The notes under the pieces were generated by a model. That model was not told the DNA's origin. It worked only from the letters and a program-made list of their open reading frames with translations, and did not search any database. Source: Sphingobacteriaceae bacterium (lineage in GTDB: Bacteria > Bacteroidota > Bacteroidia > UBA7662). From it: a DNA stretch of 64,000 nt. Both the position numbers and the translations under genes were made by a program. Each line of letters begins with the position of its first letter. Position 1 is the first letter of the stretch. Shown one piece after another: positions 21,223-63,224 of this stretch. The stretch spans positions 25,504-89,503 of the forward strand of contig JAUXNJ010000018.1 in NCBI GenBank assembly GCA_030682795.1, read 5' to 3'.

Positions 21223-21687
21223 TTACAACAATCGCACGCCCAACATCCCTAAATAGGTAGTGGCAGCAATGATGGTTGATGAAATGATGACCCCCAGCGA
21301 AATGGCTCGGTAGGCTTTGGGACGGTGTACATTCAGCACCCGAGCGGCGATTACGCCCATGTAAGCGCCTGTGAATGGCAGGGGAATCATTACAAAAAGC
21401 ATCAATCCCCAAAAATCATACTTTTTTATACTGGCACCTACGCCTTCTTTGGCTCTGCGCATGAGCTTCACGCTGCGCTTGCGGTACCAGGTAAAACGCC
21501 AGAGTTTTTTATCAAAAGTGTCAAGCAACCAATTAAAAAACGGTAAGGCAAGCAGGTTCGCTCCCATGCCTATGAGGTACACCAGCACTGGATTTTGTCC
21601 GTGCAGCATGCCATAAGGAATGCCCACACGAGCTTCGCCGAGGGGTGAAATGCTGATGAGAAAAGTTTGCAGGAGTTCTGACCACAT
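21223..21687 (-). CDS. Small multidrug export-like membrane protein (COG2426 type)
   Basis: TFLISISPLGEARVGIPYGMLHG, FVMIPLPFTGAYMGVIAARVL. Confidence 0.75.
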   Translation of the reverse strand: MWSELLQTFLISISPLGEARVGIPYGMLHGQNPVLVYLIGMGANLLALPFFNWLLDTFDKKLWRFTWYRKRSVKLMRRAKEGVGASIKKYDFWGLMLFVMIPLPFTGAYMGVIAARVLNVHRPKAYRAISLGVIISSTIIAATTYLGMLGVRLL

Positions 21688-21851
21688 GCGCTTGAAACGA
21701 TTTACAAAGTTCGCTCATTTTTATGCGTTTTGGGCTTTTAAAGTGCAATTTGTAGATTTTTAACAAGCGAATGGCCCGGCCTGTGTTCAGTATCAATTGC
21801 TTATGTTAGCTGTTCTTTTTAGGAGGCCAGAAAAACAAAATCTAGATAAGA

Positions 21852-21883
21852 TTTGTCTTTTGAATGGCGAACCACTTTATTTG
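21852..21883 (+). promoter_or_regulatory. Candidate his operon promoter
   Basis: TTTG (21852-21855) - N20 - TTTATTTG (21876-21883; one mismatch to TAnnTTTG). Confidence 0.5.
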
Positions 21884-21890
21884 TACCGAA

Positions 21891-21968
21891 ATGCAATTTA
21901 ACCGCAACCATTGGCATCATCATCTTCACCTGCTACCGGCAGCTTGGAGAGGTTATGCGCATGGCTAA
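21891..21968 (+). CDS. hisL: His operon leader peptide MQFNRNHWHHHLHLLPAAWRGYAHG
   Basis: 25-codon ORF with His at positions 7, 9, 10, 11, 13 and 24, directly upstream of a terminator hairpin and hisG. Confidence 0.85.
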   Translation: MQFNRNHWHHHLHLLPAAWRGYAHG

Positions 21969-21998
21969 GGTCTAGGTATATACAGCTCTTTTAAGGCT
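21941..21998 (+). promoter_or_regulatory. Candidate antiterminator helix of the his attenuator
   Basis: AGCTTGGAGAG (21941-21951) can pair by eye with CTCTTTTAAGGCT (21986-21998), allowing two bulges and two G-U pairs; this sequesters the terminator's 5' arm. Confidence 0.55.
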
Positions 21999-22023
21999 TG
22001 TCGGCAACGGCAAGCCTTTTTTT
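21993..22023 (+). terminator. Intrinsic terminator of the his attenuator
   Basis: AAGGCTTGTCG-GCAA-CGGCAAGCCTT stem with GNRA-type loop (21993-22018) followed by a T run. Confidence 0.88.
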
Positions 22024-22047
22024 ATTCCAAAATTTCTCAAAAAACAT

Positions 22048-22905
22048 ATGAAACCACTCAAATTAGCCATTCAAAAGTCGGGCCGCCTCAGCGACGATAG
22101 TCTCGCCCTGCTTCGTGCCTGCGGCATCCGCTTCAACAATGGCATGGGTAAATTGCGCACAGAAGCGCTGAATTTTCCGCTCGAATTGTTTTTTTTACGC
22201 GACGACGATATCCCAGAATATGTAACCGACGGCATTGCCGACCTGGGTATTGTGGGGGAGAACGTATTGTATGAAAAGGCCCAGCCCCTGCCCATTGCAG
22301 CTAAACTGGGATTTGGAAAGTGTCGTTTGTCGCTGGCGGTACCTAAAAACAGCGGTTACCGACAACTGAGCGACCTCAATGGGCAGCGCATCGCCACTTC
22401 CTATCCCCGTTTGCTGCGCAGTTATCTCGATAAGCAGTCGTTGCGTGCCGACATCCACGAAATCAGCGGTTCGGTTGAAATTGCACCGAGCATTGGTTTG
22501 GCCGACGCCATCTGCGACTTGGTGAGCTCCGGCTCTACCCTCTTTACCAATGGCTTGCGGGAGGTAGAAACGGTTTTACAAAGTGAAGCCGTATTGGTGC
22601 AGGCCCAATCGCTATCAGCCGAAAAAATGGCCCTGCTCAACCGCCTGCTTTTCCGCATTCAAGCCGTTCAGAAAGCGCAACAGAACAAATACATCTTGCT
22701 AAACGCGCCTAACGATAAGTTAGACAAGATTGTGTCGCTCTTACCCGGTATTAAAAGTCCCACCCTTTTACCGCTGGCCATCGAGGGCTGGAGCAGTCTG
22801 CACTCCGTAATCGAAGAAAACCAGTTCTGGGAAGTGATTGAGCAACTCAAAGCTGCTGGGGCAGAAGGCATCTTGGTTTTACCGATCGAAAAAATGATAT
22901 TTTGA
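22048..22905 (+). CDS. hisG: ATP phosphoribosyltransferase
   Basis: LAIQKSGRLSDDSLALLRACGI, VTDGIADLGIVGENVLYE, DLVSSGSTLFTNGLREVE. Confidence 0.95.
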   Translation: MKPLKLAIQKSGRLSDDSLALLRACGIRFNNGMGKLRTEALNFPLELFFLRDDDIPEYVTDGIADLGIVGENVLYEKAQPLPIAAKLGFGKCRLSLAVPKNSGYRQLSDLNGQRIATSYPRLLRSYLDKQSLRADIHEISGSVEIAPSIGLADAICDLVSSGSTLFTNGLREVETVLQSEAVLVQAQSLSAEKMALLNRLLFRIQAVQKAQQNKYILLNAPNDKLDKIVSLLPGIKSPTLLPLAIEGWSSLHSVIEENQFWEVIEQLKAAGAEGILVLPIEKMIF

Positions 22906-24197
22906 TGAAAGTATACTTAAATCCTGAAATAAACTTATGGGCTGAAATATGCCAAAGGCCTGCTTTTGAGCAGAAAGACCTCGACGCCCAGGTTTTCGAT
23001 TTGATGGATCAGGTGCGTTTGGAAGGCGACGCGGCAGTGAAGCGCTTGAGCAAGCGTTTCGACGGCGTGGCGCTGGAAAGCCTTTTGATCCCTGATGAAG
23101 CCTTCTCCAAAGCCGAGAAAGCATTGCCTGAAGCCTTAAAAGGAGCTATTCGTCAGGCAGCGGCCAATATTGAGCGTTTTCATGCGGCCCAACTACGCCC
23201 CGAGGAGGTGGTAGAGACCATGCCTGGTGTGCGCTGCTGGCGCAAGTCGGTGGGCATCCAAAAAGTGGGACTTTACATTCCTGGTGGTACTGCCCCGCTC
23301 TTCAGCACGGTGTTGATGTTGGGCATTCCTGCCAAATTAGCGGGCTGTAAAGAAGTGCTGTTGTGCAGTCCCCCGAATGCCGCCGGCGAATTGCACCCAG
23401 CCATTTTATACGCCGCATCCGTTTGTGGCATCCGCCAGGTGTATGCCGTGGGTGGGGTGCAGGCCATCGCGGCTATGACTTACGGGACCGAAACAATACC
23501 GCAAGTAGACAAGCTTTTTGGTCCCGGCAACCAATACGTCACCGCCGCCAAGCAGCTAGCGCAGCGCTCGGGTGTGGCCATTGACATGCCAGCAGGTCCT
23601 TCGGAAGTAGCCATTTTTGCAGATGAAACCGCCGATCCAGCCTTCATTGCGGCCGATTTGCTGAGTCAGGCGGAGCACGGTGCCGATTCGCAAGTGCTGC
23701 TGGTCACCAACAGCGAACAACAGCTTGAGCAAGTGCAAGCCGCTTTGGAGGCACAACTGCAGCGCCTTCCTCGGCTGCAAGCGGCAGCTGGCGCCTTGGC
23801 AAACAGTCGCATGGTGTACCTCCCCACTGCCGACCAAGCCTTGGAGCTGCTCAACGCCTATGCCCCCGAGCATTTGATTTTGAATTGTCGAGATGCAGCT
23901 ACCTTGGCCGGGCGCTTACAGCAAGCGGGCTCGGTATTTATTGGCGCTTACAGCTGCGAAAGTGCGGGCGATTATGCCAGCGGCACCAACCACACCCTCC
24001 CTACCAATGGCTATGCACGGGCGTATAGCGGGGTTTCGGTAGATAGTTTTGTGAAAAAAATCACCTTCCAGGAGCTCAGTGCCGAAGGTGCGCGTTTGCT
24101 GGCCCCCACGGTGGAGCTGATGGCAGCAGCCGAGCAACTCGATGCACACCGCTACGCCATGCAGCTGCGGCGTGAAAAAGCGGAGGCGGCTTTATGA
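22905..24197 (+). CDS. hisD: Histidinol dehydrogenase
   Basis: VGLYIPGGTAPLFSTVLML, FGPGNQYVTAAKQL, DMPAGPSEVAIFAD, LSQAEHGADSQVLLV; ATG at 22905. Confidence 0.95.
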   Translation: MKVYLNPEINLWAEICQRPAFEQKDLDAQVFDLMDQVRLEGDAAVKRLSKRFDGVALESLLIPDEAFSKAEKALPEALKGAIRQAAANIERFHAAQLRPEEVVETMPGVRCWRKSVGIQKVGLYIPGGTAPLFSTVLMLGIPAKLAGCKEVLLCSPPNAAGELHPAILYAASVCGIRQVYAVGGVQAIAAMTYGTETIPQVDKLFGPGNQYVTAAKQLAQRSGVAIDMPAGPSEVAIFADETADPAFIAADLLSQAEHGADSQVLLVTNSEQQLEQVQAALEAQLQRLPRLQAAAGALANSRMVYLPTADQALELLNAYAPEHLILNCRDAATLAGRLQQAGSVFIGAYSCESAGDYASGTNHTLPTNGYARAYSGVSVDSFVKKITFQELSAEGARLLAPTVELMAAAEQLDAHRYAMQLRREKAEAAL

Positions 24198-25249
24198 GTG
24201 CTTTCGCCACCACCGCTACTGCTGCGATCGATGCCTTGGTGCAGCCGCATTTGCTGGATTTGCAGCCCTATGCCACGGCCCGGCATGAGTTTGCAGGCAC
24301 AGCCGAGGTTTATTTAGATGCGAACGAGAGTCCGTTTAACACCGCCCTCAACCGCTACCCCGACCCGGCGCAAAAGGACCTCCGCACCGAAATAGCCCTT
24401 CAAAAAGGGCTGCGGCTAGAGCAGGTGTTTACGGGTCAGGGCTCCGACGAGGCCATCGACTTGCTCACGCGGCTATGCTGCAGGCCGGGCAAGGACGAGG
24501 TGATTGTTTGTCCCCCCACCTACGGCGTGTACGCCATCGCCGCCCGACTGCAGCAAGCCAAAGTGGTGGAAGTGCCGCTCACAGCCGATTTCCAGCTCGA
24601 TGTGGCCAGCATTTTAGCGGCTAGCAGTGCCAACAGCAAAATCCTTTGGCTTTGCTCGCCCAACAATCCCACAGGCAATTTGATGGAAGAAGCTGCCATT
24701 TTGGAGCTGCTACGCGCCTTTCCTGGCTTGGTGGTGGTGGATGAAGCCTACATCGACTTCGCCCAAAGCAAGAGCTGGAGCAGTGTTTTGGCCGATTTTC
24801 CGCGCTTGGTGGTGCTGCAGACTTTGTCGAAGGGCTGGGGACTGGCAGCGCTCCGCTTGGGCATGGCCTTTGCGCATCCCCGACTCATTGAACTGCTGCA
24901 GCGCATCAAATCGCCTTACAATTTGTCGGGACCAAGTCAGCAGACGGCCCTCGAGCGGCTGCAAAACGCAACCGAAACGCATAAACAAATCGACCTGCTC
25001 GTGGCCGAACGCCAACAACTAGCTACGGACTTGTCGCAACTGCCCAGTGTTCTACAAGTTTACCCTTCTCAAGCCAACTTCCTCCTCGTGCGCTTTCAAA
25101 ACGCCCGTGCTACCTACGAGCTGTTGCTCCAAAACGGCATTTTGGTGCGCGACCGCTCCACCGTGCCTGGCTGCAACGGCTGTCTACGCATCAGCATTGG
25201 CACTCCTACCGAAAACCAAAAACTTCTTCAAATCCTCCTTCAAGCATGA
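24194..25249 (+). CDS. hisC: Histidinol-phosphate aminotransferase
   Basis: YLDANESPFNT, CSPNNPTGN, VVDEAYIDF, QTLSKGWGLAALRLGMAF. Confidence 0.95.
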   Translation: MSAFATTATAAIDALVQPHLLDLQPYATARHEFAGTAEVYLDANESPFNTALNRYPDPAQKDLRTEIALQKGLRLEQVFTGQGSDEAIDLLTRLCCRPGKDEVIVCPPTYGVYAIAARLQQAKVVEVPLTADFQLDVASILAASSANSKILWLCSPNNPTGNLMEEAAILELLRAFPGLVVVDEAYIDFAQSKSWSSVLADFPRLVVLQTLSKGWGLAALRLGMAFAHPRLIELLQRIKSPYNLSGPSQQTALERLQNATETHKQIDLLVAERQQLATDLSQLPSVLQVYPSQANFLLVRFQNARATYELLLQNGILVRDRSTVPGCNGCLRISIGTPTENQKLLQILLQA

Positions 25250-26373
25250 AAAAAGTCCTTTTTATAGATAGAGATGGGGTACTGCTGCACGAGCCGCAGG
25301 ATACCTTCCAGATCGACAGCCTCGAAAAATTCGCCTTCATTCCTGGTCTTTTCGAAGGCCTAGGCCGCATTGCCCGCGAACTCGATTACGAATTGGTAAT
25401 GGTGAGCAATCAGGATGGCTTAGGGAAACCCAGTTATCCGCTCCCCATCTTTGAAAGTTTACAGAAGATACTGATTGACTCCCTCGCTGGAGAAGGTATC
25501 CGCTTCAGTGCCATCCATTTGGATGTGCATACCGAGGCGGAGATCGACTGGAGTCTGCCCCCTGCCCTCATCTCGCGCAAACCTGGCACGGCCATGTTGC
25601 AGGGCTATTTAACGGGCTACGATTTGGCCAACAGCTTTGTGATTGGCGACCGCTTCACCGATTTAGAGTTGGCACGCAACCTAGGTACCCAAGCCATCTG
25701 GTTCCAAAAAAGCAGTCAACAGCCCCCTGAGTCGTTAAAAGCCGCCTTGGTCAGCGACCGTTGGCCCGACATTTACCGCTATTTACGCAGTCTACCGCGG
25801 CAGGTAGTGGTCAATCGCACCACCCAAGAAACCGCCATTCGGGTAGCCTTAAACCTCGATGGCAGTGGCTTTTCGCGCATCAGCACAGGCATAGGCTTTT
25901 TCGACCATATGCTGGAGCAGCTGGCGCGGCACGGGGGCTACGACCTAGAGCTCAGTTGCGCGGGCGATTTGCACATTGATGCGCACCACAGCATTGAGGA
26001 TACGGCTTTGGCGCTAGGACAAGCCTTCCGCGAGGCGCTCGGTAAAAAAACCGGCATCCAGCGCTACGGCTTTGTGCTGCCCATGGACGATTGTTTGGCC
26101 CAGGCGAGTCTCGATTTCAGCGGTCGTCCTGCCCTGCAATGGGAACTGAGCTTTGCCCAAAGTCAGCTCGGCGACTTCCCCACCCAAATGGCCAAGCACT
26201 TTTTCGAATCCTTCGCCCAAGCGGCTGGCTGCAATTTACAGCTGCAAGTTACCGGCGAAAACGACCACCACAAGCTCGAAAGCTGCTTCAAAGCCTTTGC
26301 GAGGGCTTTGCGTGCGGCGACCGACTTTGGTTCGCAAACCGACCAACTGCCAAGCACCAAAGGACAATTATGA
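25246..26373 (+). CDS. hisB: Bifunctional histidinol-phosphatase / imidazoleglycerol-phosphate dehydratase
   Basis: N-terminal HAD FIDRDGVLLHEP; C-terminal GIGFFDHMLEQLARHG, DLHIDAHHSIEDTALALGQA. Confidence 0.95.
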   Translation: MKKVLFIDRDGVLLHEPQDTFQIDSLEKFAFIPGLFEGLGRIARELDYELVMVSNQDGLGKPSYPLPIFESLQKILIDSLAGEGIRFSAIHLDVHTEAEIDWSLPPALISRKPGTAMLQGYLTGYDLANSFVIGDRFTDLELARNLGTQAIWFQKSSQQPPESLKAALVSDRWPDIYRYLRSLPRQVVVNRTTQETAIRVALNLDGSGFSRISTGIGFFDHMLEQLARHGGYDLELSCAGDLHIDAHHSIEDTALALGQAFREALGKKTGIQRYGFVLPMDDCLAQASLDFSGRPALQWELSFAQSQLGDFPTQMAKHFFESFAQAAGCNLQLQVTGENDHHKLESCFKAFARALRAATDFGSQTDQLPSTKGQL

Positions 26374-26954
26374 ACATCGCCATTGTAAAATACAATGCGG
26401 GTAACATCCGTTCGGTGGAACTGGCTTTAAAGCGAATTGGCCACGAAGCTGTGGTTACCGCCGATCCAGCCACCCTACAGGCTGCCGATAAAGTCATTTT
26501 TCCCGGGGTTGGCGCGGCCAATGCGGCCATGCCGTGGCTCGAAGCGGCTGGACTGGTACCCGTGCTACGCAACTTGCAGCAACCTGTGCTGGGCATTTGT
26601 TTGGGCATGCAACTCCTCGCCGAAGCCTCGGAAGAAGGTCCTACCGCCTGCCTCAACCTGGTGCCCTGTACCGTTCAACGCTTTTTGCCCAGCGCCGGCA
26701 AAGTGCCGCAAATTGGCTGGAACCAAGTCACGCACCAAAACCACCCCCTTTTTGAAGGCCTCCCACCACAAGTATGGATGTACCATGTGCATGGTTTTTA
26801 CCTGCCCTTGGGCGCTCATACCATTGCCAGCACTACATACGGCATACCCTACACCGCCGCCCTGCAGCACCAAAACTTTTATGCCGTTCAATTTCACCCC
26901 GAGCGCAGCGGCCCGGCTGGCAGTCGCCTGCTCCAAAACTTTTTAGCGATATGA
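26370..26954 (+). CDS. hisH: Imidazole glycerol phosphate synthase subunit HisH
   Basis: MNIAIVKYNAGNIRSVELAL, GICLGMQLLAEASEEG, VQFHPERSGPAG; start at 26370 with ATGA overlap. Confidence 0.93.
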   Translation: MNIAIVKYNAGNIRSVELALKRIGHEAVVTADPATLQAADKVIFPGVGAANAAMPWLEAAGLVPVLRNLQQPVLGICLGMQLLAEASEEGPTACLNLVPCTVQRFLPSAGKVPQIGWNQVTHQNHPLFEGLPPQVWMYHVHGFYLPLGAHTIASTTYGIPYTAALQHQNFYAVQFHPERSGPAGSRLLQNFLAI

Positions 26955-27694
26955 AACTTACACCCATTGCCGCCATCGACCTCATTGCAGGCCAAGTGGT
27001 GCGCCTCACCCAAGGCGATTTTAACCAAAAAAAAACCTATTCGAGCAATCCTGTGTCCGTGGCCAAACAGCTCGAGCAACTGGGTTTTGAGCGTTTGCAT
27101 TTGGTAGATTTAGACGGCGCCAAGGCTGGAAAACCGCAGCAGCTATCCATTTTGGCCGCTATTGCGCGAGAAACCAGTTTAAAAATCGATTTTGGAGGGG
27201 GACTTCGCACTTTGGAAGACTTTGAAAGCGTGCTCAACGCCGGCGCCCAGCAGGTTACCTTGGGAAGTCTGGCCGTCGAAAACCCCGCCCTGCTCGAAAA
27301 CTTCATTGCTCAAAAAGGCGCTTCCAAATTGCTGCTAGCAGCCGATGTGCGCAACGGTTGGGTGGTTACGCGTGGTTGGACCAGTCAAAGCACCCTGGCC
27401 ATCTCCGCCTACCTCCGCAACTGGCTCCAAAAAGGCGTTTCGGAAGTCTTTGTGACCGACGTTGCCAACGACGGCGCCATGCGTGGACCCAATTTTGCCC
27501 TTTACCAACAGTTGCTTACCGAGCTGCCACAGTTACAACTCATTGCCAGCGGCGGTATTCGGGGCCCCGGCGACGTACAAAAACTCAGCGAGCTCGGCTG
27601 CAGCGGCGCCATCATCGGCAAAGCCCTGTATGAAGAACAAGTGCCGCGCATGCGCTGGATTGAACTCCTAAAAAAAGGCGTATATGCTGGCTAA
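26951..27694 (+). CDS. hisA: Phosphoribosylformimino-5-aminoimidazole carboxamide ribotide isomerase
   Basis: [39 protein letters not shown]; start at 26951 with ATGA overlap. Confidence 0.93.
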
Positions 27695-28439
27695 GCGCAT
27701 CATTCCTTGTTTGGATGTGAAAGACGGTCGCACTGTAAAAGGCATCCGTTTTGAAGCCTTGCGAGATGCGGGTGATCCTGTAGCTTTGGCCGCCTTCTAC
27801 GCCGAGCAGGGTGCCGACGAGCTCGTATTGCTCGATATTTCTGCCACACATGAAGGTCGCACAACATTTTTGCCCTTGGTGGCACAAGTGGCGGTCGAAC
27901 TCAACATTCCCTTTACCGTGGGCGGCGGCATTAGCAGTCTGGCACAAATTGAAGCCCTATTGAGCGTGGGCGCCGACAAAATCAGCCTGAACAGCGCCGC
28001 TTTCCGCAACCCGCAACTCATTGAAGAGGCCGCCAAACGTTTCGGCAGTCAGTGCATCGTACTGGCCATCGATGCCCGGCGCGTAGGCAGCCAATACGAG
28101 GTATTTCTGCAAGGCGGTCGCCAAGCCACCGGCACAGAAGCCATCGCATGGGCGCAGCAAGCCGTAGACCTAGGAGCTGGCGAAATCCTGCTCACGAGCA
28201 TGGATGCCGATGGCACCAAAGCCGGCTTCGAGCTCACCCTCACCCAGCAGCTCGCACAAGCCTTGCCCGTACCCGTGATTGCCAGCGGTGGCGCCGGCTC
28301 CCCCGAGCACTTTGCCGAGGTATTTCAACAGGCTGGTGCCGATGCTGCACTTGCCGCCAGCATTTTTCACTTTGGCGAAATCGCTATTCCTGATCTTAAA
28401 AACTATTTAGCATCCCTCCAAATCCCCATCCGCATATGA
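27684..28439 (+). CDS. hisF: Imidazole glycerol phosphate synthase subunit HisF
   Basis: [57 protein letters not shown]. Confidence 0.95.
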
Positions 28440-29035
28440 ACCTCCAACCCGATTTTAGCAAGGGGCTTTTACCCGCCATCATCCAAAACGATCAAGACGG
28501 CCGCGTGCTCATGCTGGGCTACATGAATGCCGCTGCCTTTGAACTCAGTAAAAAAGATGGTCGTGTTTGCTTTTTCAGTCGCAGCAAAAACCGCCTCTGG
28601 ATCAAAGGCGAAAGCTCTGGCAACTTTTTGAACATCCAGAGCATGCAACTCGACTGCGATGCCGATGCCTTGCTTATCCGCGTAAAACCCACTGGTCCCA
28701 CTTGCCACACCGGCAGCAACAGCTGTTTTGGAGATGAACTACCAAGTACCGACTTCCTGCAAACACTACAGGCCTTGATCCAAGAACGCCAACGCCAGCC
28801 CGTAAAAGGCTCCTACACCAACCAGCTCCTCGAAGCGGGCATCGACCGCATGGCCCAAAAAGTAGGTGAAGAAGGCGTAGAAACGGTAATCGCCGCCAAA
28901 AACAACGACCTCAACAAGCTTCACGAAGAAGCAGCCGACCTACTGTACCACCTTTTGGTGTTGCTCACAGGAAAAAATACGGATTTGAACGCGGTGGTGG
29001 ATATCTTAAAAAGCCGCCACCAAAAAGCACACTGA
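28436..29035 (+). CDS. hisIE: Bifunctional phosphoribosyl-AMP cyclohydrolase / phosphoribosyl-ATP pyrophosphatase
   Basis: [21 protein letters not shown]-terminal [36 protein letters not shown]. Confidence 0.95.
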
Positions 29036-55839: not shown

Positions 55840-58800
55840 ATGAACATTAAAAAACTACTAACAACGAGGCTTTTGCTTCTATTGTTACTGGTGCTTACAG
55901 GAAATGGGCTGGCCACAGCTCAGTACTGTGCATCAAACGCCACCAACACAGCCGATTCGCGGATTGCGAAGGTCAAGGTTGGTAACGACTCTATCACATC
56001 TCCGGTCGGCACGGGGAATTGTGCAGGTTACACCGATTATACCGCATCAGCAGCCTTTACACTGCGATATGGTGTTGGTACAGCCGCTACCATTACCTAT
56101 GGCACTTGCGGGCTTGATTATGCCTCTTATGCCAAGATTTTTGTTGACTTGAATAACGATAGCATATTCACAGCCAATGAAATGCTAGGCGAAGGCCCGG
56201 TAGTTGCGGGTACCCCCTTGTTGGCGAATTTGGTTCTGCCAGCCACTACTGCACATTTGGGAGTAACCCTCATGCGCGTGGTACTGCGAGAAAGTGGCAC
56301 AACTACCACTACCGAAGCTTGCGGTACTTACACCTACGGTGAAACGCAAGATTTTTCAGTGAACTTGCTCCCTCCGCCAAACTGCTTACCACCAACCGCC
56401 CTACTGGTCAACACCAGCACCAGCGCTAGCGCTACTTTGGCATGGACAGAGCAAGGCACTGCAACGGCTTGGGACATTGAGTACGGTCCCGTTGGTTTTA
56501 ACCAGGGCACAGGAACCACATTGGCAGCAACCAGCAATCCATTCACCATCTCCGGCTTAACAGCCAATACCGGCTATCAAGCATTTGTTCGCGCCAATTG
56601 TGGAGCCACCAATGGCACATCAGCTTGGTCTGGCCCAATTACTTTCCAAACTCCTTGCGCCGGACCTATTTCTGGCACCTTGACGGTAAACGCAAGTGCT
56701 ACACCTTCAACAACTAGTTTCACAAGTTTGGCAAGCGTATTTACTAGCTTAAGCAATTGTGGGATTAATGGTCCCGTGGTTATTAATATGGTCGCCAATA
56801 GCGGCCCGTACAATGGTGAAGTGATCATCGCAAATATTCCGGGAAACGACAGCACCAATACCATCACCATTAATGGAAATGGCAATACCATTCAACATTT
56901 GTCTACCAACACGAACCAGCGTGCCACTTTGCGCGTTGATGGTATTGATTACCTGACCGTCAATAATCTCATTATTAAGGCTCTAGGGGAACAAACAGGC
57001 GAATTTGGCTTTGGGGTACACCTGCTAAATAGTGCAGATTTCAACACTTTCAACAACATTACAGTTGAATCGAATACTACCTCTACCTCGACTAACTTCG
57101 CTGCTTTTGTTGCTAGTAATAGCAATACCAGCGCAACGGCAGTAGGTGCAGCTGCGACTAACCTTACCTTGACTAACTCAACGATGATCGGTGGTTATTA
57201 TGGCATTACTTTGAATGGAGCTACATCTGCACCTTTTGCTACAGGAGCCAATATTTCGAACAATACCGTTCAGGACTTCTACTTATACGGTGTTTGGATA
57301 CGAGCACAAATAAACGGCCAATTCAACAATAATGATATCTTCAGAACGAATCGTGCTGCCTATTCTACCTTTTATGGCATTTATTTGAACAGTCGCTTAG
57401 ATAACTCCGTATTTAACGCCAACCGCATTCACGACGATGCGCCAGTGGCTGGCAACAGCTTCAGTTCTTATCCTATTTACGGTACTGGTGCCGTTGGATC
57501 TGCAGGAAATCCATATAGAATCACAAATAACGCCGTCTACAATATCCGAAATACCGGTATTACCTATGGCATCTATTTCCTCTCTACCTCTAATTTCCAT
57601 AATATTCACCATAACACGGTTATTATCGATAACCAGGCAGAGGGTGGAACAAGTACAAAAGCGGCCTATTACAATACCTCTACAACTGCTGCACCAGAAA
57701 TTGACTTGAAGAACAATATCTTCTACATCAACAACAGCAATGGTGGCAGCCAATATGGTATTTGGTTCAGCAGTGCAACACCGGTATTCACATCCAACCA
57801 CAATAACATTTTTGTTTCAGCTAATGCAACTGCTGGGATAAAGGCGGCTGTTCGTCGTGGCACAACCAATTATCTGACCCTAACCGATTGGAAAGCAGCT
57901 TTTAGCAGTGCTTTCGATCAAAATAGTGTAGACGCTGATCCCGTTATCACCAATCCAACCATTGGTAACATTACTCCGTTATCTAGTACAATCGATAACC
58001 TGGGTGTTAACGTAGGTGTTACTACCGACCTTAATGGCGTAACACGTTCAGCAACTACACCTGATTTGGGTGCCGTTGAATTCTCTGGCATCGCGAGTGA
58101 TTTGGCTTTGCTAGGAGGTTCATTGAGCCGCAATTTATGTTACAGCACGAATGATTCAATCGACCTTACCATTAGGAACGTAGTAGGAGGCAGTATTAAT
58201 TTCAGCACTACGCCATTAACAGTTAACTGGAGCGTAAATGGCCCTGCCAATTCAACAGGAAGCACCATCATAAACACTGGCACGCTGGCTTCAAATGCCA
58301 ATTTGACCATCCGTTTAGGTGGTGTAAATATGTCGATTGCCGGCACATATACAGGATCGGCAGCAATAGGAGGCAATAGCTTCAACATCAATCCACTCAA
58401 CGATTCAATCGCTGGCTTTGACATGATTGTAGATCCATTGTTGTTTATTTCTCCTAATAGTGCCAGCATTACTGATGACACAACAGCTGTTGACGTTCGT
58501 GCATTTTCGCGCTTTATGCCGGTAAGTGGCCACCCAATTATCACAGAAATTTGTCACTTCAAAACAGCAACTGGTGCCCCAACCAATGGCTGGCCTTCTT
58601 ACTTGATAGCCGACGATTATATCGAGGTTTCTTGGTCGCCCGGTGCTGATTTGGGTGGATATACCCTCGAACAGTGGTCCACAACCGCACTTTCAGGAAC
58701 ATTTACTTTCCCTGGTGGCACTTTGATTGGACCGAATGGTACAGCCATCATTGCAGTTGGCCAATTGGGATCTAGTGTTCCTTCACCAGCTGATTATTAT

Positions 58801-61464
58801 TATCATGGTAATGGCACTTTCACATCTACCTGGGGGTCTACAACGGCTGCTGGCCGTGTAATTAAAAACCCAAGCGGTACGATTGTAGAAGCAGTAGGTT
58901 ACGGAACTTATACTTTCCCAGCAGCAGCCAACGTTGATTCAACGCTGTGGAGTGGCAACACCCCAGCGGTAAGCAGCAGTGGCAACCGTTTGGAAGGCGC
59001 TTATACGCGTAGCGCAACCAACTGGATTAACTCTGGCACCTCGCCGCAAACACCAAATGTATTGAATCCGGGTATCGTTTTACCAACACCTCCAGCGGTT
59101 CCTGGCTTTACTTGGACGCTTAATGGCGCTGTGGTTGATACAGTTCCTGAGGTGACATTTGGACCATTCTCAACATCTGGAACTTTCACATACATCGCAA
59201 ACTACGCTACCGCATCGTGTGGTTTATTGACAGATTCTATTGTTGTTACTGTTCAAATACCAGTAGTTACCTGCCCGATCACCACAACCCCTACTGCCAC
59301 CGGTGGTATTGCTTGTGGCCCGAATGGAGCTGTTTTATCGGCCATTCCGGGCGACACTGCAGCTTTCATAGTTTGGTCAGATTCGTCGAATACGCTTGTG
59401 GGTACAGGCAGCCCCTTTACCACATTGCCATTAACTGCCAACTACAACTTCAGGGCACATGATGCCAAAATTTCTTCTGGCATCTTTAGCCCAGGCCCTC
59501 CTACCAGCATTGCGACTGGTGGATTTGGCAACTTCTCCAATGGTATGTATTTCACCGCTTTCTCTTCATTCTTTTGGGATTCTGTGACCTTCCGCGCCAA
59601 TGGTCCAGTAACGGGTGTGATTCGTATTTGGGACAGCAACCCAACTAACTTCCCCAATGCTAAACTTATTCAAAGTAAAAACTTTAGTGTAAGTGGCGCA
59701 GGTGACATCCAAGTTCCAGTAGGAATGGCCATTTCCCAGGGTAGCTATTATGTGAATTTAGGCTTTAACACCGGAAGTGCTCAATTGTGGCGTTCAACAG
59801 GTGGTGCGGTATATCCATATACTGTTCCTGACTTGATGAGAATCGACAGTGCCTGGTTAGGCGCAAACAGTACAGGTAACCTTACTCGTGTATACTATTT
59901 CCTCGATTGGAAAGTGAGCGCATTGTGCTTTGGTACAGGTGTAAATGCATTGGCAACTACCGCGCCAAGCACCCTAACAACACTACCTTTTGCTGAAACC
60001 TTTACGAATGGCATCGCTTGTGACTGGGTACGTACACAAAACACGGGCTCAACAGGCTGGGTGGCTGGTAACAGCACCAGCTTAAGTTCTACCGGCTTCA
60101 CCATTCCAGCGCATAATGATTTTGTTGCGGTTAACGCCAACAGCTGTAACTGTAACTCTGATAATGACCGGTTAATAACGCCTCGTTTTAACTTTGGCAC
60201 TTTTGGTACGCTCAATAATTTGTCGTTGACCTTTGAGTATTTCATGCCAGGCAATGCGGGTTCAAGAGGTACCGTATTGGTTTCTACCGATGGTGGTACC
60301 ACATATAGTCTACTTGATTCCTTGCCAAGCACATCTACAACTGCCTGGGCGGTTCGTACCATTAACTTAAACAGCCTTGCTGGACAAGCTGACGTACGTT
60401 TCGCTTTCCGTCACAGCGATGGTGGTGGTGCAGGTGATGGTTTAGCCATTGACGACATCGAAATCACCTCTTCTTGTGCTGGTACTGAAGTTCGTGTGGA
60501 GGTAGTAACAGACATCTTCGGCACTGAAACTACTTGGGTATTGCGTGATGCGGTAACAAACACCGTTTATGCAACCGGCGGCCCTTATGACGATGTAAAC
60601 CCTTACAACGCTGCTGCAGCGACGCACATCGCCATTGTATGTGTTCCTGACAGCGCTAACGTAACCTTCAAAATCAACGATTCTTATGGCGACGGATTAT
60701 TCGATGGCACGAACACTGGTACTTTTGATGTGAGCATTGATTGCGGTGGTACTCAAACTTCGCTCTTCAGCGGAAGTGGTGCCTTCCCGTACGGCGGTGG
60801 AGCTGCCAATGTACCATCATGGGATTCATTGAACTTCCAGGTGCTTTGCCCTCCAGCTATTCCACAAGTTTCGGTAACCTTCCGTGTAGATATGAGCCGC
60901 GAAAACGTATCTTCTGATGGTGTACATATCGCGGGCAGCTTCCAGGGCTGGAACCCTAGTGCTACACCAATGGTGAGTCAAGGAAACGGCATTTATACCT
61001 ATACTGCCACTCTTGACGCCAACACAACTTATGAGTATAAGTTCATCAACGGCAACCAGTGGGGTCCAGGTTTCGATGAATCTGTACCAGCAGCCTGTGC
61101 ACAAAACGGAAATCGTTTTGTAGTCGTAGATACCACCACCATTACTACACCAATGGTTTGTTTTGGTCGTTGCGAGGCTTGTGGAGTGAGTGTATTTGAA
61201 GCAGGTAGCTTGGGCAGTGCCATTCGCATGTACCCTAACCCTACCAGCGCCGAAACACACATTGCTTATGTGTTCGAAACTCCAAGCGAATTGAATGTAA
61301 CGATTTACGATGCCCGTGGCAAAATGGTTTCTCAAATCATCGAGAAAGACATTACCACTGGTACCATCAAATTAAATGTTCAAGGTTGGGCCGAAGGCAT
61401 TTACCATGTTCGCATGTTCAATGGCTTCGAGCAAATCTCTCGTCAGTTGGTGGTTACCAAGTAA
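55840..61464 (+). CDS. Large secreted multidomain T9SS protein (GEVED-like, FnIII, beta-helix, lamin-tail-like, glycogen-binding-like domains)
   Basis: Signal peptide; ILVDLNNDSIFTANEMLGE-type GEVED region; N-rich parallel beta-helix; LTD-like ADDYIEVSWSPGADLGGYTLEQW; AGSFQGWNPSATPM; C-terminal IRMYPNPTSAETHIAYVF..IYHVRMFNGFEQISRQLVVTK. Confidence 0.88.
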   Translation: MNIKKLLTTRLLLLLLLVLTGNGLATAQYCASNATNTADSRIAKVKVGNDSITSPVGTGNCAGYTDYTASAAFTLRYGVGTAATITYGTCGLDYASYAKIFVDLNNDSIFTANEMLGEGPVVAGTPLLANLVLPATTAHLGVTLMRVVLRESGTTTTTEACGTYTYGETQDFSVNLLPPPNCLPPTALLVNTSTSASATLAWTEQGTATAWDIEYGPVGFNQGTGTTLAATSNPFTISGLTANTGYQAFVRANCGATNGTSAWSGPITFQTPCAGPISGTLTVNASATPSTTSFTSLASVFTSLSNCGINGPVVINMVANSGPYNGEVIIANIPGNDSTNTITINGNGNTIQHLSTNTNQRATLRVDGIDYLTVNNLIIKALGEQTGEFGFGVHLLNSADFNTFNNITVESNTTSTSTNFAAFVASNSNTSATAVGAAATNLTLTNSTMIGGYYGITLNGATSAPFATGANISNNTVQDFYLYGVWIRAQINGQFNNNDIFRTNRAAYSTFYGIYLNSRLDNSVFNANRIHDDAPVAGNSFSSYPIYGTGAVGSAGNPYRITNNAVYNIRNTGITYGIYFLSTSNFHNIHHNTVIIDNQAEGGTSTKAAYYNTSTTAAPEIDLKNNIFYINNSNGGSQYGIWFSSATPVFTSNHNNIFVSANATAGIKAAVRRGTTNYLTLTDWKAAFSSAFDQNSVDADPVITNPTIGNITPLSSTIDNLGVNVGVTTDLNGVTRSATTPDLGAVEFSGIASDLALLGGSLSRNLCYSTNDSIDLTIRNVVGGSINFSTTPLTVNWSVNGPANSTGSTIINTGTLASNANLTIRLGGVNMSIAGTYTGSAAIGGNSFNINPLNDSIAGFDMIVDPLLFISPNSASITDDTTAVDVRAFSRFMPVSGHPIITEICHFKTATGAPTNGWPSYLIADDYIEVSWSPGADLGGYTLEQWSTTALSGTFTFPGGTLIGPNGTAIIAVGQLGSSVPSPADYYYHGNGTFTSTWGSTTAAGRVIKNPSGTIVEAVGYGTYTFPAAANVDSTLWSGNTPAVSSSGNRLEGAYTRSATNWINSGTSPQTPNVLNPGIVLPTPPAVPGFTWTLNGAVVDTVPEVTFGPFSTSGTFTYIANYATASCGLLTDSIVVTVQIPVVTCPITTTPTATGGIACGPNGAVLSAIPGDTAAFIVWSDSSNTLVGTGSPFTTLPLTANYNFRAHDAKISSGIFSPGPPTSIATGGFGNFSNGMYFTAFSSFFWDSVTFRANGPVTGVIRIWDSNPTNFPNAKLIQSKNFSVSGAGDIQVPVGMAISQGSYYVNLGFNTGSAQLWRSTGGAVYPYTVPDLMRIDSAWLGANSTGNLTRVYYFLDWKVSALCFGTGVNALATTAPSTLTTLPFAETFTNGIACDWVRTQNTGSTGWVAGNSTSLSSTGFTIPAHNDFVAVNANSCNCNSDNDRLITPRFNFGTFGTLNNLSLTFEYFMPGNAGSRGTVLVSTDGGTTYSLLDSLPSTSTTAWAVRTINLNSLAGQADVRFAFRHSDGGGAGDGLAIDDIEITSSCAGTEVRVEVVTDIFGTETTWVLRDAVTNTVYATGGPYDDVNPYNAAAATHIAIVCVPDSANVTFKINDSYGDGLFDGTNTGTFDVSIDCGGTQTSLFSGSGAFPYGGGAANVPSWDSLNFQVLCPPAIPQVSVTFRVDMSRENVSSDGVHIAGSFQGWNPSATPMVSQGNGIYTYTATLDANTTYEYKFINGNQWGPGFDESVPAACAQNGNRFVVVDTTTITTPMVCFGRCEACGVSVFEAGSLGSAIRMYPNPTSAETHIAYVFETPSELNVTIYDARGKMVSQIIEKDITTGTIKLNVQGWAEGIYHVRMFNGFEQISRQLVVTK

Positions 61465-62378: not shown

Positions 62379-63224
62379 CTAAGCATATAATTTTGCAATC
62401 CTGAAGAGAAAGAAGTTAATATCTCTTACGCCACGGAACTGAGCTCTAAATGCTTTGATTTTGGCGTTGAAAGATTCAGCGGAAGCATTGGTGCTTTTGT
62501 TGTCGAAGTAGTTTAGGATTTTACGATGGTGTAGTTCAATGGTTTTTGATATGGTATTAAAAGCCTTAAATCCAACAAACTCCACTGCGTTGTGCCATCT
62601 TGCCAGGCGTGTAAAGGCGATCATTTTGTTTTTTGAGCTGGCAAATACTAATTTAAGCTGTTGTGTAAGTTCGTATGCCTTTTTGATGTCGGGATATTTA
62701 TCAAACAGCAGATCAGCTCTTTGCTGTTGCGTTTTGCTCCAGTTGTTTTGATGCTTATAGAGTAAATGCCTACTCCTGGCTAATAGTTGCTTAAGTGTGT
62801 CGCCATTTTCAAATACTTCTGCCTGGAATGGTATTTTAAGCTTTTTGGAGACTTCTATTGCCTCGTTTTCGGCATCAATAGCATTCCAACGGTGCTTAAT
62901 CCTAATCTCCTGAAGCGCTTCTGAGGCCAATTGTTCGACATGGAACCGGTCAATCACCTGGGTTGCATTGGGAAAGCTTCTTTTGATTGCTAAGGCCATA
63001 TTGCCAGCCAAATCAAGCGTTACTTCTTGGACCTGTTTACGCTCTTTAATACCAATCTTTTCTACTACGGCAATGATGTCTTCTGCCTTAGTGCCTTCGA
63101 TTATGGCCACAATTGAGCCATTTTTACCCTTGGCCTCTTTATTGGTGATAATGGTATATAGCTCGCCTTGTGAAAGACTCGTTTCGTCAATAGAAAGGTA
63201 AGGCCCTATGTTCTGAGGAAACAC
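62379..63224 (-). CDS. ISL3-type transposase, DDE catalytic ORF (open frame extends upstream to about 63364)
   Basis: GPYLSIDETSLSQGELYTIITNKEAKGKNGSIVAIIEGT, DLAGNMALAIKRSFPNATQVIDRFHVEQLA, FDNKSTNASAESFNAKIKAFRAQFRGVRD. Confidence 0.9.
   Translation of the reverse strand: MFPQNIGPYLSIDETSLSQGELYTIITNKEAKGKNGSIVAIIEGTKAEDIIAVVEKIGIKERKQVQEVTLDLAGNMALAIKRSFPNATQVIDRFHVEQLASEALQEIRIKHRWNAIDAENEAIEVSKKLKIPFQAEVFENGDTLKQLLARSRHLLYKHQNNWSKTQQQRADLLFDKYPDIKKAYELTQQLKLVFASSKNKMIAFTRLARWHNAVEFVGFKAFNTISKTIELHHRKILNYFDNKSTNASAESFNAKIKAFRAQFRGVRDINFFLFRIAKLYA

Follow-up and report, generated by a model that had tools for sequence, protein, structure and literature searches.

Control of histidine synthesis by leader-peptide attenuation is textbook knowledge and is best known from enteric bacteria. 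A comparative study of attenuation in bacteria by Lopatovskaya and colleagues from 2010, cited in PMC4833913, may already list his cases from Bacteroidota. Within this phylum there is also the Bacteroid-trp RNA (RF01692), which we take to be a predicted Trp leader attenuator. It was described as a Bacteroidetes motif among candidate structured RNAs (PMC2864571). For the his operons of Firmicutes, comparative genomics has predicted leader peptides with 3–5 His codons accompanied by a terminator and an antiterminator, and the same paper, from 2022, places the known his attenuators in Proteobacteria and leaves Bacteroidota unmentioned (PMC9413887). A study on Flavobacterium psychrophilum reports strong clues that leader-peptide attenuators precede operons for amino-acid biosynthesis and describes, at hisG, a structured 5' element that is conserved in Flavobacteriaceae and has no Rfam hits (PMC9723704).

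Here, we consider a locus in the window, by which is meant the entire 64,000-nt stretch of DNA that was analyzed, from a Sphingobacteriaceae bacterium. A His leader, a terminator serving no other gene, an antiterminator that follows the His codons and a predicted 1:2 hairpin are present at this locus and conserved in relatives; hence, the his operon here is very probably controlled by ribosome-mediated transcription attenuation, which supports the reading of a preliminary description of the sequence. Its features are as follows:

21853..21855, + strand: TTG, the −33 element of a predicted Bacteroidota sigma-A promoter, with a 20-nt spacer to the −7 box
21876..21883, + strand: −7 element TTTATTTG, one mismatch to the consensus TAnnTTTG, 7 nt before the leader ATG
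21891..21968, + strand: his leader peptide ORF MQFNRNHWHHHLHLLPAAWRGYAHG, stop codon TAA at 21966–21968
21909..21929, + strand: regulatory codons CAT TGG CAT CAT CAT CTT CAC, 5 His in 7
21908..21964, + strand: predicted 1:2 hairpin, the His codon side 21908–21934 with 21938–21964, in the minimum-energy fold without a ribosome
21937..21949, + strand: predicted antiterminator 5' strand CGGCAGCUUGGAG, pairing with 21986–22003 in His-stalled-state folds
21986..22003, + strand: predicted antiterminator 3' strand in the same folds, holding the entire 5' arm of the terminator
21993..22023, + strand: intrinsic terminator, an 11-bp stem (21993–22003/22008–22018) with a GCAA loop and a U-run at 22017–22023
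22048..29035, + strand: the regulated operon hisG-hisD-hisC-hisB-hisH-hisA-hisF-hisIE, intact

The leader ORF, the terminator and the operon

The leader ORF was found as first described, with five His codons among seven. A peptide tail of 12 sense codons extends past the last His of the run, and the stop codon lies 79 nt from hisG with the terminator between them. The 156-nt leader is predicted to fold more stably than its dinucleotide shuffles by 3.7 sd (z = −3.7), with none of 200 shuffles being equally stable. The Trp and Leu codons interrupting the His run had been considered unusual, a judgment that does not carry over to Bacteroidota: as only 22 of the 149 leaders collected from relatives (see below) have at least five His residues unbroken, a run interrupted like that of the window is ordinary in this phylum. 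The Trp codon inside the run (HWHHH) is kept in all three family members having hisG (L001, L002, L003); the switch might sense tryptophan shortage too, trpE being absent from the window's genome. Stretches of five His in seven codons also occur at 58263 (+) and 60442 (−), and these were rejected as leaders, being out-of-frame shadows of one long coding ORF.

The terminator and its GCAA tetraloop occupy exactly the positions originally proposed, with a predicted hairpin energy of −17.6 kcal/mol, and hisG does follow directly, starting at 22048. Because the upstream neighbor gene (21223–21687) lies on the opposite strand, the terminator serves only transcripts heading into hisG. Within the operon, hisG, hisD, hisC, hisB, hisF and hisIE score above the NCBIfam model cut-offs, and hisH and hisA were assigned solely by ORF inspection and operon position.

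The genome as a whole, listed as 100% complete, has no match to trpE (PF04715), prephenate dehydratase (PF00800), ilvD (TIGR00110) or leuA (TIGR00973), so that it offers no sister attenuators of trp, phe, ilv or leu to examine; moreover, hisG itself is missing from 14 of the 16 other family members searched. Histidine synthesis here looks like an isolated survivor within an otherwise amino-acid-dependent lineage. Elsewhere in the window, two further ORFs were recognized by eye: one at 55840–61464 coding for a putatively secreted multidomain protein of 1874 aa, whose C-terminal end (YPNPT...) resembles the sorting signal of type IX secretion cargo, and a transposase-like one at 62379–63224 (−).

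A predicted promoter close to the leader start

The predicted promoter recurs at similar positions in relatives. Of 149 leaders, 89 have an exact TAnnTTTG no more than 24 nt from their ATG, compared with 4 of 147 when the same count is made 60 nt more upstream; a −7 box with at most one mismatch, combined with TTG at a spacer of 18–21 and lying no more than 60 nt from the ATG, is found in 109 of 149 versus 4 of 147 control positions. Given the −7 box at 21876–21883 and the span of −12 to −5 that the F. psychrophilum study assigns to this box (PMC9723704), we infer that transcription in the window starts near 21888. This predicts a 5' leader of about 3 nt in the window and a median of 6 nt across leaders. 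Leaders this short are reported to be rare in Bacteroidota: leaderless mRNAs make up 5.5% in F. psychrophilum (PMC9723704), and 5' leaders under 10 nt are found in about 3.7% of the mRNAs of B. thetaiotaomicron (PMC7366714). With the leader ATG so close to the predicted end of the transcript, the controlling ribosome would load without a Shine-Dalgarno site. An in-frame upstream ATG at 21864 would serve if a promoter further upstream were active.

Competing helices and the proposed switch

In folding calculations that include no ribosome, 21938–21964 pairs with the His codons, the antiterminator strand is hidden and the terminator forms; the window and the same-genus relative are both predicted to have this 1:2 hairpin over the His codons. 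The preliminary description had suggested folding the leader with a part of it masked, and when a ribosome is masked on the His codons, with the 3' arm of the terminator still unmade, the best fold is the antiterminator 21937–21949/21986–22003, which has an energy of −19.4 kcal/mol including an enclosed stem and occupies 9 of the 11 bases of the terminator 5' arm. The helix 21941–21951/21986–21998, earlier found by eye, forms in this minimum-energy fold as the core of the longer pairing. The antiterminator strand CGGCAGCUU resembles the 3' arm of the terminator CGGCAAGCCUU, as competing strands are expected to be alike. A duplex-only search also returned an alternative antiterminator at the leader stop codon (21963–21973/21994–22002), which was rejected since 21937–21949 is preferred when everything is folded together behind a realistic ribosome edge. 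With the 3' arm complete, equilibrium folding favors the terminator even when the ribosome is stalled (Pterm 0.999), and antitermination must therefore be kinetic. Taken on its own, the window pairs 9 of 11 arm bases, a degree of capture that does not differ significantly from shuffles (p = 0.20); the case rests on the relatives.

In the proposed course of events, RNA polymerase would start near 21888 and a ribosome would begin translating the leader at 21891. When His-tRNA is scarce, this ribosome would stall at 21909–21929, opening the 1:2 hairpin and freeing 21937–21949, which would then pair with 21986–22003 and take the 5' arm of the terminator before the 3' arm is made; with the 5' arm captured, the polymerase would read into hisG. 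Plentiful His-tRNA would let the ribosome reach the stop codon at 21966–21968, where its footprint would presumably span about 21948–21978, or depart so that the 1:2 hairpin re-forms; the terminator would then fold, and transcription would end near 22020. The original proposal that a ribosome at the stop codon masks the antiterminator strand stands in part: masking would be partial and not full, as the strand ends 17 nt ahead of the first base of the stop codon, and since only a part of the strand would be covered, re-formation of the 1:2 hairpin would be needed to complete it.

Conservation across Bacteroidota and beyond

We assembled 196 distinct hisG upstream regions, mostly of Bacteroidota, from whole genomes and GTDB contigs, and counted as leaders those ATG ORFs with at least 4 His in 8 codons lying within 320 nt of hisG. 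Such an ORF is present in 149 of the 196 regions, against a mean of 0.35 in shuffles and 0 on the antisense strand, and no other amino acid exceeds 12 in the same ORF count. Thus, His-rich leader ORFs occur upstream of hisG far beyond chance. In an even sample of Bacteroidota, a leader is present at 60 of the 87 loci listed for having a sufficiently similar HisG; only 2 of 27 genomes with a distant type of HisG (about 30% identity) have one, which ties the leader to one HisG clade. Classic His-codon attenuation is the likely shared means of controlling histidine synthesis in much of the phylum.

Among the closest relatives, the same-genus leader is MFRNLIHWHHHLHLPPAARVICVQG, sharing HWHHHLH with the window, and the leader, terminator and antiterminator are all kept despite different bases on both sides; the same-family leader is MTNSCFHWHHHHAHLLVGRDVCVHGNS, with the geometry of leader, terminator and antiterminator kept in a different sequence. 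The preliminary description had made its reading depend on the conservation of a leader ORF and a competing helix in relatives, and both are conserved. A strong terminator accompanies 118 of the leaders; when the stalled state is folded, 107 of these engage 5 or more terminator-arm bases in pairing with an upstream strand (mean arm pairs 8.3 versus 4.9 in shuffles), and the capturing strand starts at a median of 13 nt past the last His codon, approximately the reach of a stalled ribosome.

In an alignment of 43 relatives, the predicted terminator helix covaries: it is paired in 98.6% of the cells, and 33 cells are changed on both sides, a number equaled in 0 of 500 shuffles. The antiterminator is paired in 93.5% of the cells versus 22–52% when it is slid; one of its pairs switches from U-A to C-G in 5 sequences, and the 3' arm of the terminator changes to match in 4 of them. 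As this is the one pair changed on both sides and the count of such pairs in the 43 aligned relatives is not above shuffles, the antiterminator is supported by the conservation of pairing and geometry more than by covariation. Covariation in relatives, which the preliminary description had proposed to examine, is modest for the antiterminator, and the conservation of its pairing is strong.

A distinct pattern is seen in Cytophagales (L033, L035, L041, L043, L076, L084, L098, L102, L103, L110, L111, L115, L116, L123, L124, L128, L136), where, in Pontibacter, Algoriphagus, Mariniradius, Marinigracilibium and others, the leaders close with ...HHFHHSS or something very near it, some 110 nt short of hisG, and in most of them a strong terminator is absent. 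One group places its stop codon within the loop of a small hairpin (ATTCCTC-GTAA-GAGGAAT); CATATNGCCC comes next, and after it a short GGG/CCC hairpin whose U-run is weak. In Algoriphagus, the conserved stem is another one, GGTGA...TTCACC. Rfam gave no match in the six Cytophagales loci searched (L035, L084, L098, L103, L110, L136). The chances appear evenly balanced that the Bacteroidota his attenuator would operate on a nearly leaderless mRNA, its ATG typically 3–6 nt from the 5' end and its ribosome loading without a Shine-Dalgarno site, and that a Cytophagales branch would have replaced the strong terminator with another element while keeping the ...HHFHHSS leader, the stop codon of which falls within a small hairpin's loop or next to it.

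Some MAGs titled Acidobacteria or Pyrinomonadaceae (L060, L073, L075, L096) have a HisG 65–69% identical to that of the window and a His-rich leader, with a terminator in some, which suggests either that operon and attenuator were exchanged between phyla or that these are mislabelled bins.

Alternative explanations

The leader ORF could act mainly at the level of translation, with finishing ribosomes re-initiating at hisG or freeing its start site and the hairpin being incidental. Such reinitiation has been proposed as a general role of leaders (PMC4833913), and the Cytophagales leaders lacking a strong terminator would agree with it; however, the same work places the distance peak in Bacteroidetes at 11–14 bp, far from the 79 nt that separate leader stop and hisG here with a terminator in between. 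Moreover, covariation is seen in the stem of the terminator, and what the antiterminator captures is precisely the 5' arm of that stem. We therefore regard a mainly translational role as very improbable. It is also hard to credit that hisG is preceded by a constitutive terminator or dampener, with the leader ORF a non-regulating remnant. The missing matches to trpE, prephenate dehydratase, ilvD and leuA would allow that control of amino-acid synthesis has been relaxed in this lineage, and arm capture in the window by itself does not exceed shuffles, but the same-genus relative has kept HWHHHLH, the terminator and the antiterminator while both strands changed, which argues for ongoing selection.

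A structured leader might also be governed by another sensor, be it a T-box, a metabolite riboswitch or an RNA-binding protein acting on the terminator. However, the leader yields no Rfam match at the cut-off of any family, those at E ≤ 10 being only unrelated small RNAs well below threshold, and what the relatives conserve is the His codons together with the distance from these to the antiterminator; control by such a sensor is thus exceedingly improbable.

Comparison with known systems

Among the Rfam families, His_leader stays below its gathering threshold throughout the window, and it gives no match at E ≤ 10 in 21700–22100, where the other matches at this level have no relevance either. 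Bacteroid-trp belongs to another operon and another amino acid, and RF01692 is likewise unmatched in the window. The Firmicutes his leaders have the same parts as the element described here, in another phylum. The hisG element of F. psychrophilum comes from the same phylum and gene and from another family (PMC9723704), and leader, antiterminator and promoter are here defined across many families.

The E. coli hisL leader (MTRVQFKHHHHHHHPD; Rfam His_leader) shares with the window's element a His-rich leader peptide, mutually exclusive helices and a terminator directly before hisG, and it folds alike in the same calculation, with the antiterminator prevailing before the 3' arm is made and the terminator at equilibrium. 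The mechanism is known, and it is shown here to be widespread in Bacteroidota, for which Rfam has no family. The two leaders differ in that hisL has seven His in a row, whereas the window's leader has a broken run of 5 in 7 codons, a longer peptide tail and, by prediction, an ATG only some 3 nt from the 5' end of the transcript. The near-leaderless start may be a phylum-specific twist, and the conserved spacing from promoter to ATG would offer a testable case of ribosome loading without the Shine-Dalgarno site, a site rarely used in Bacteroidota.
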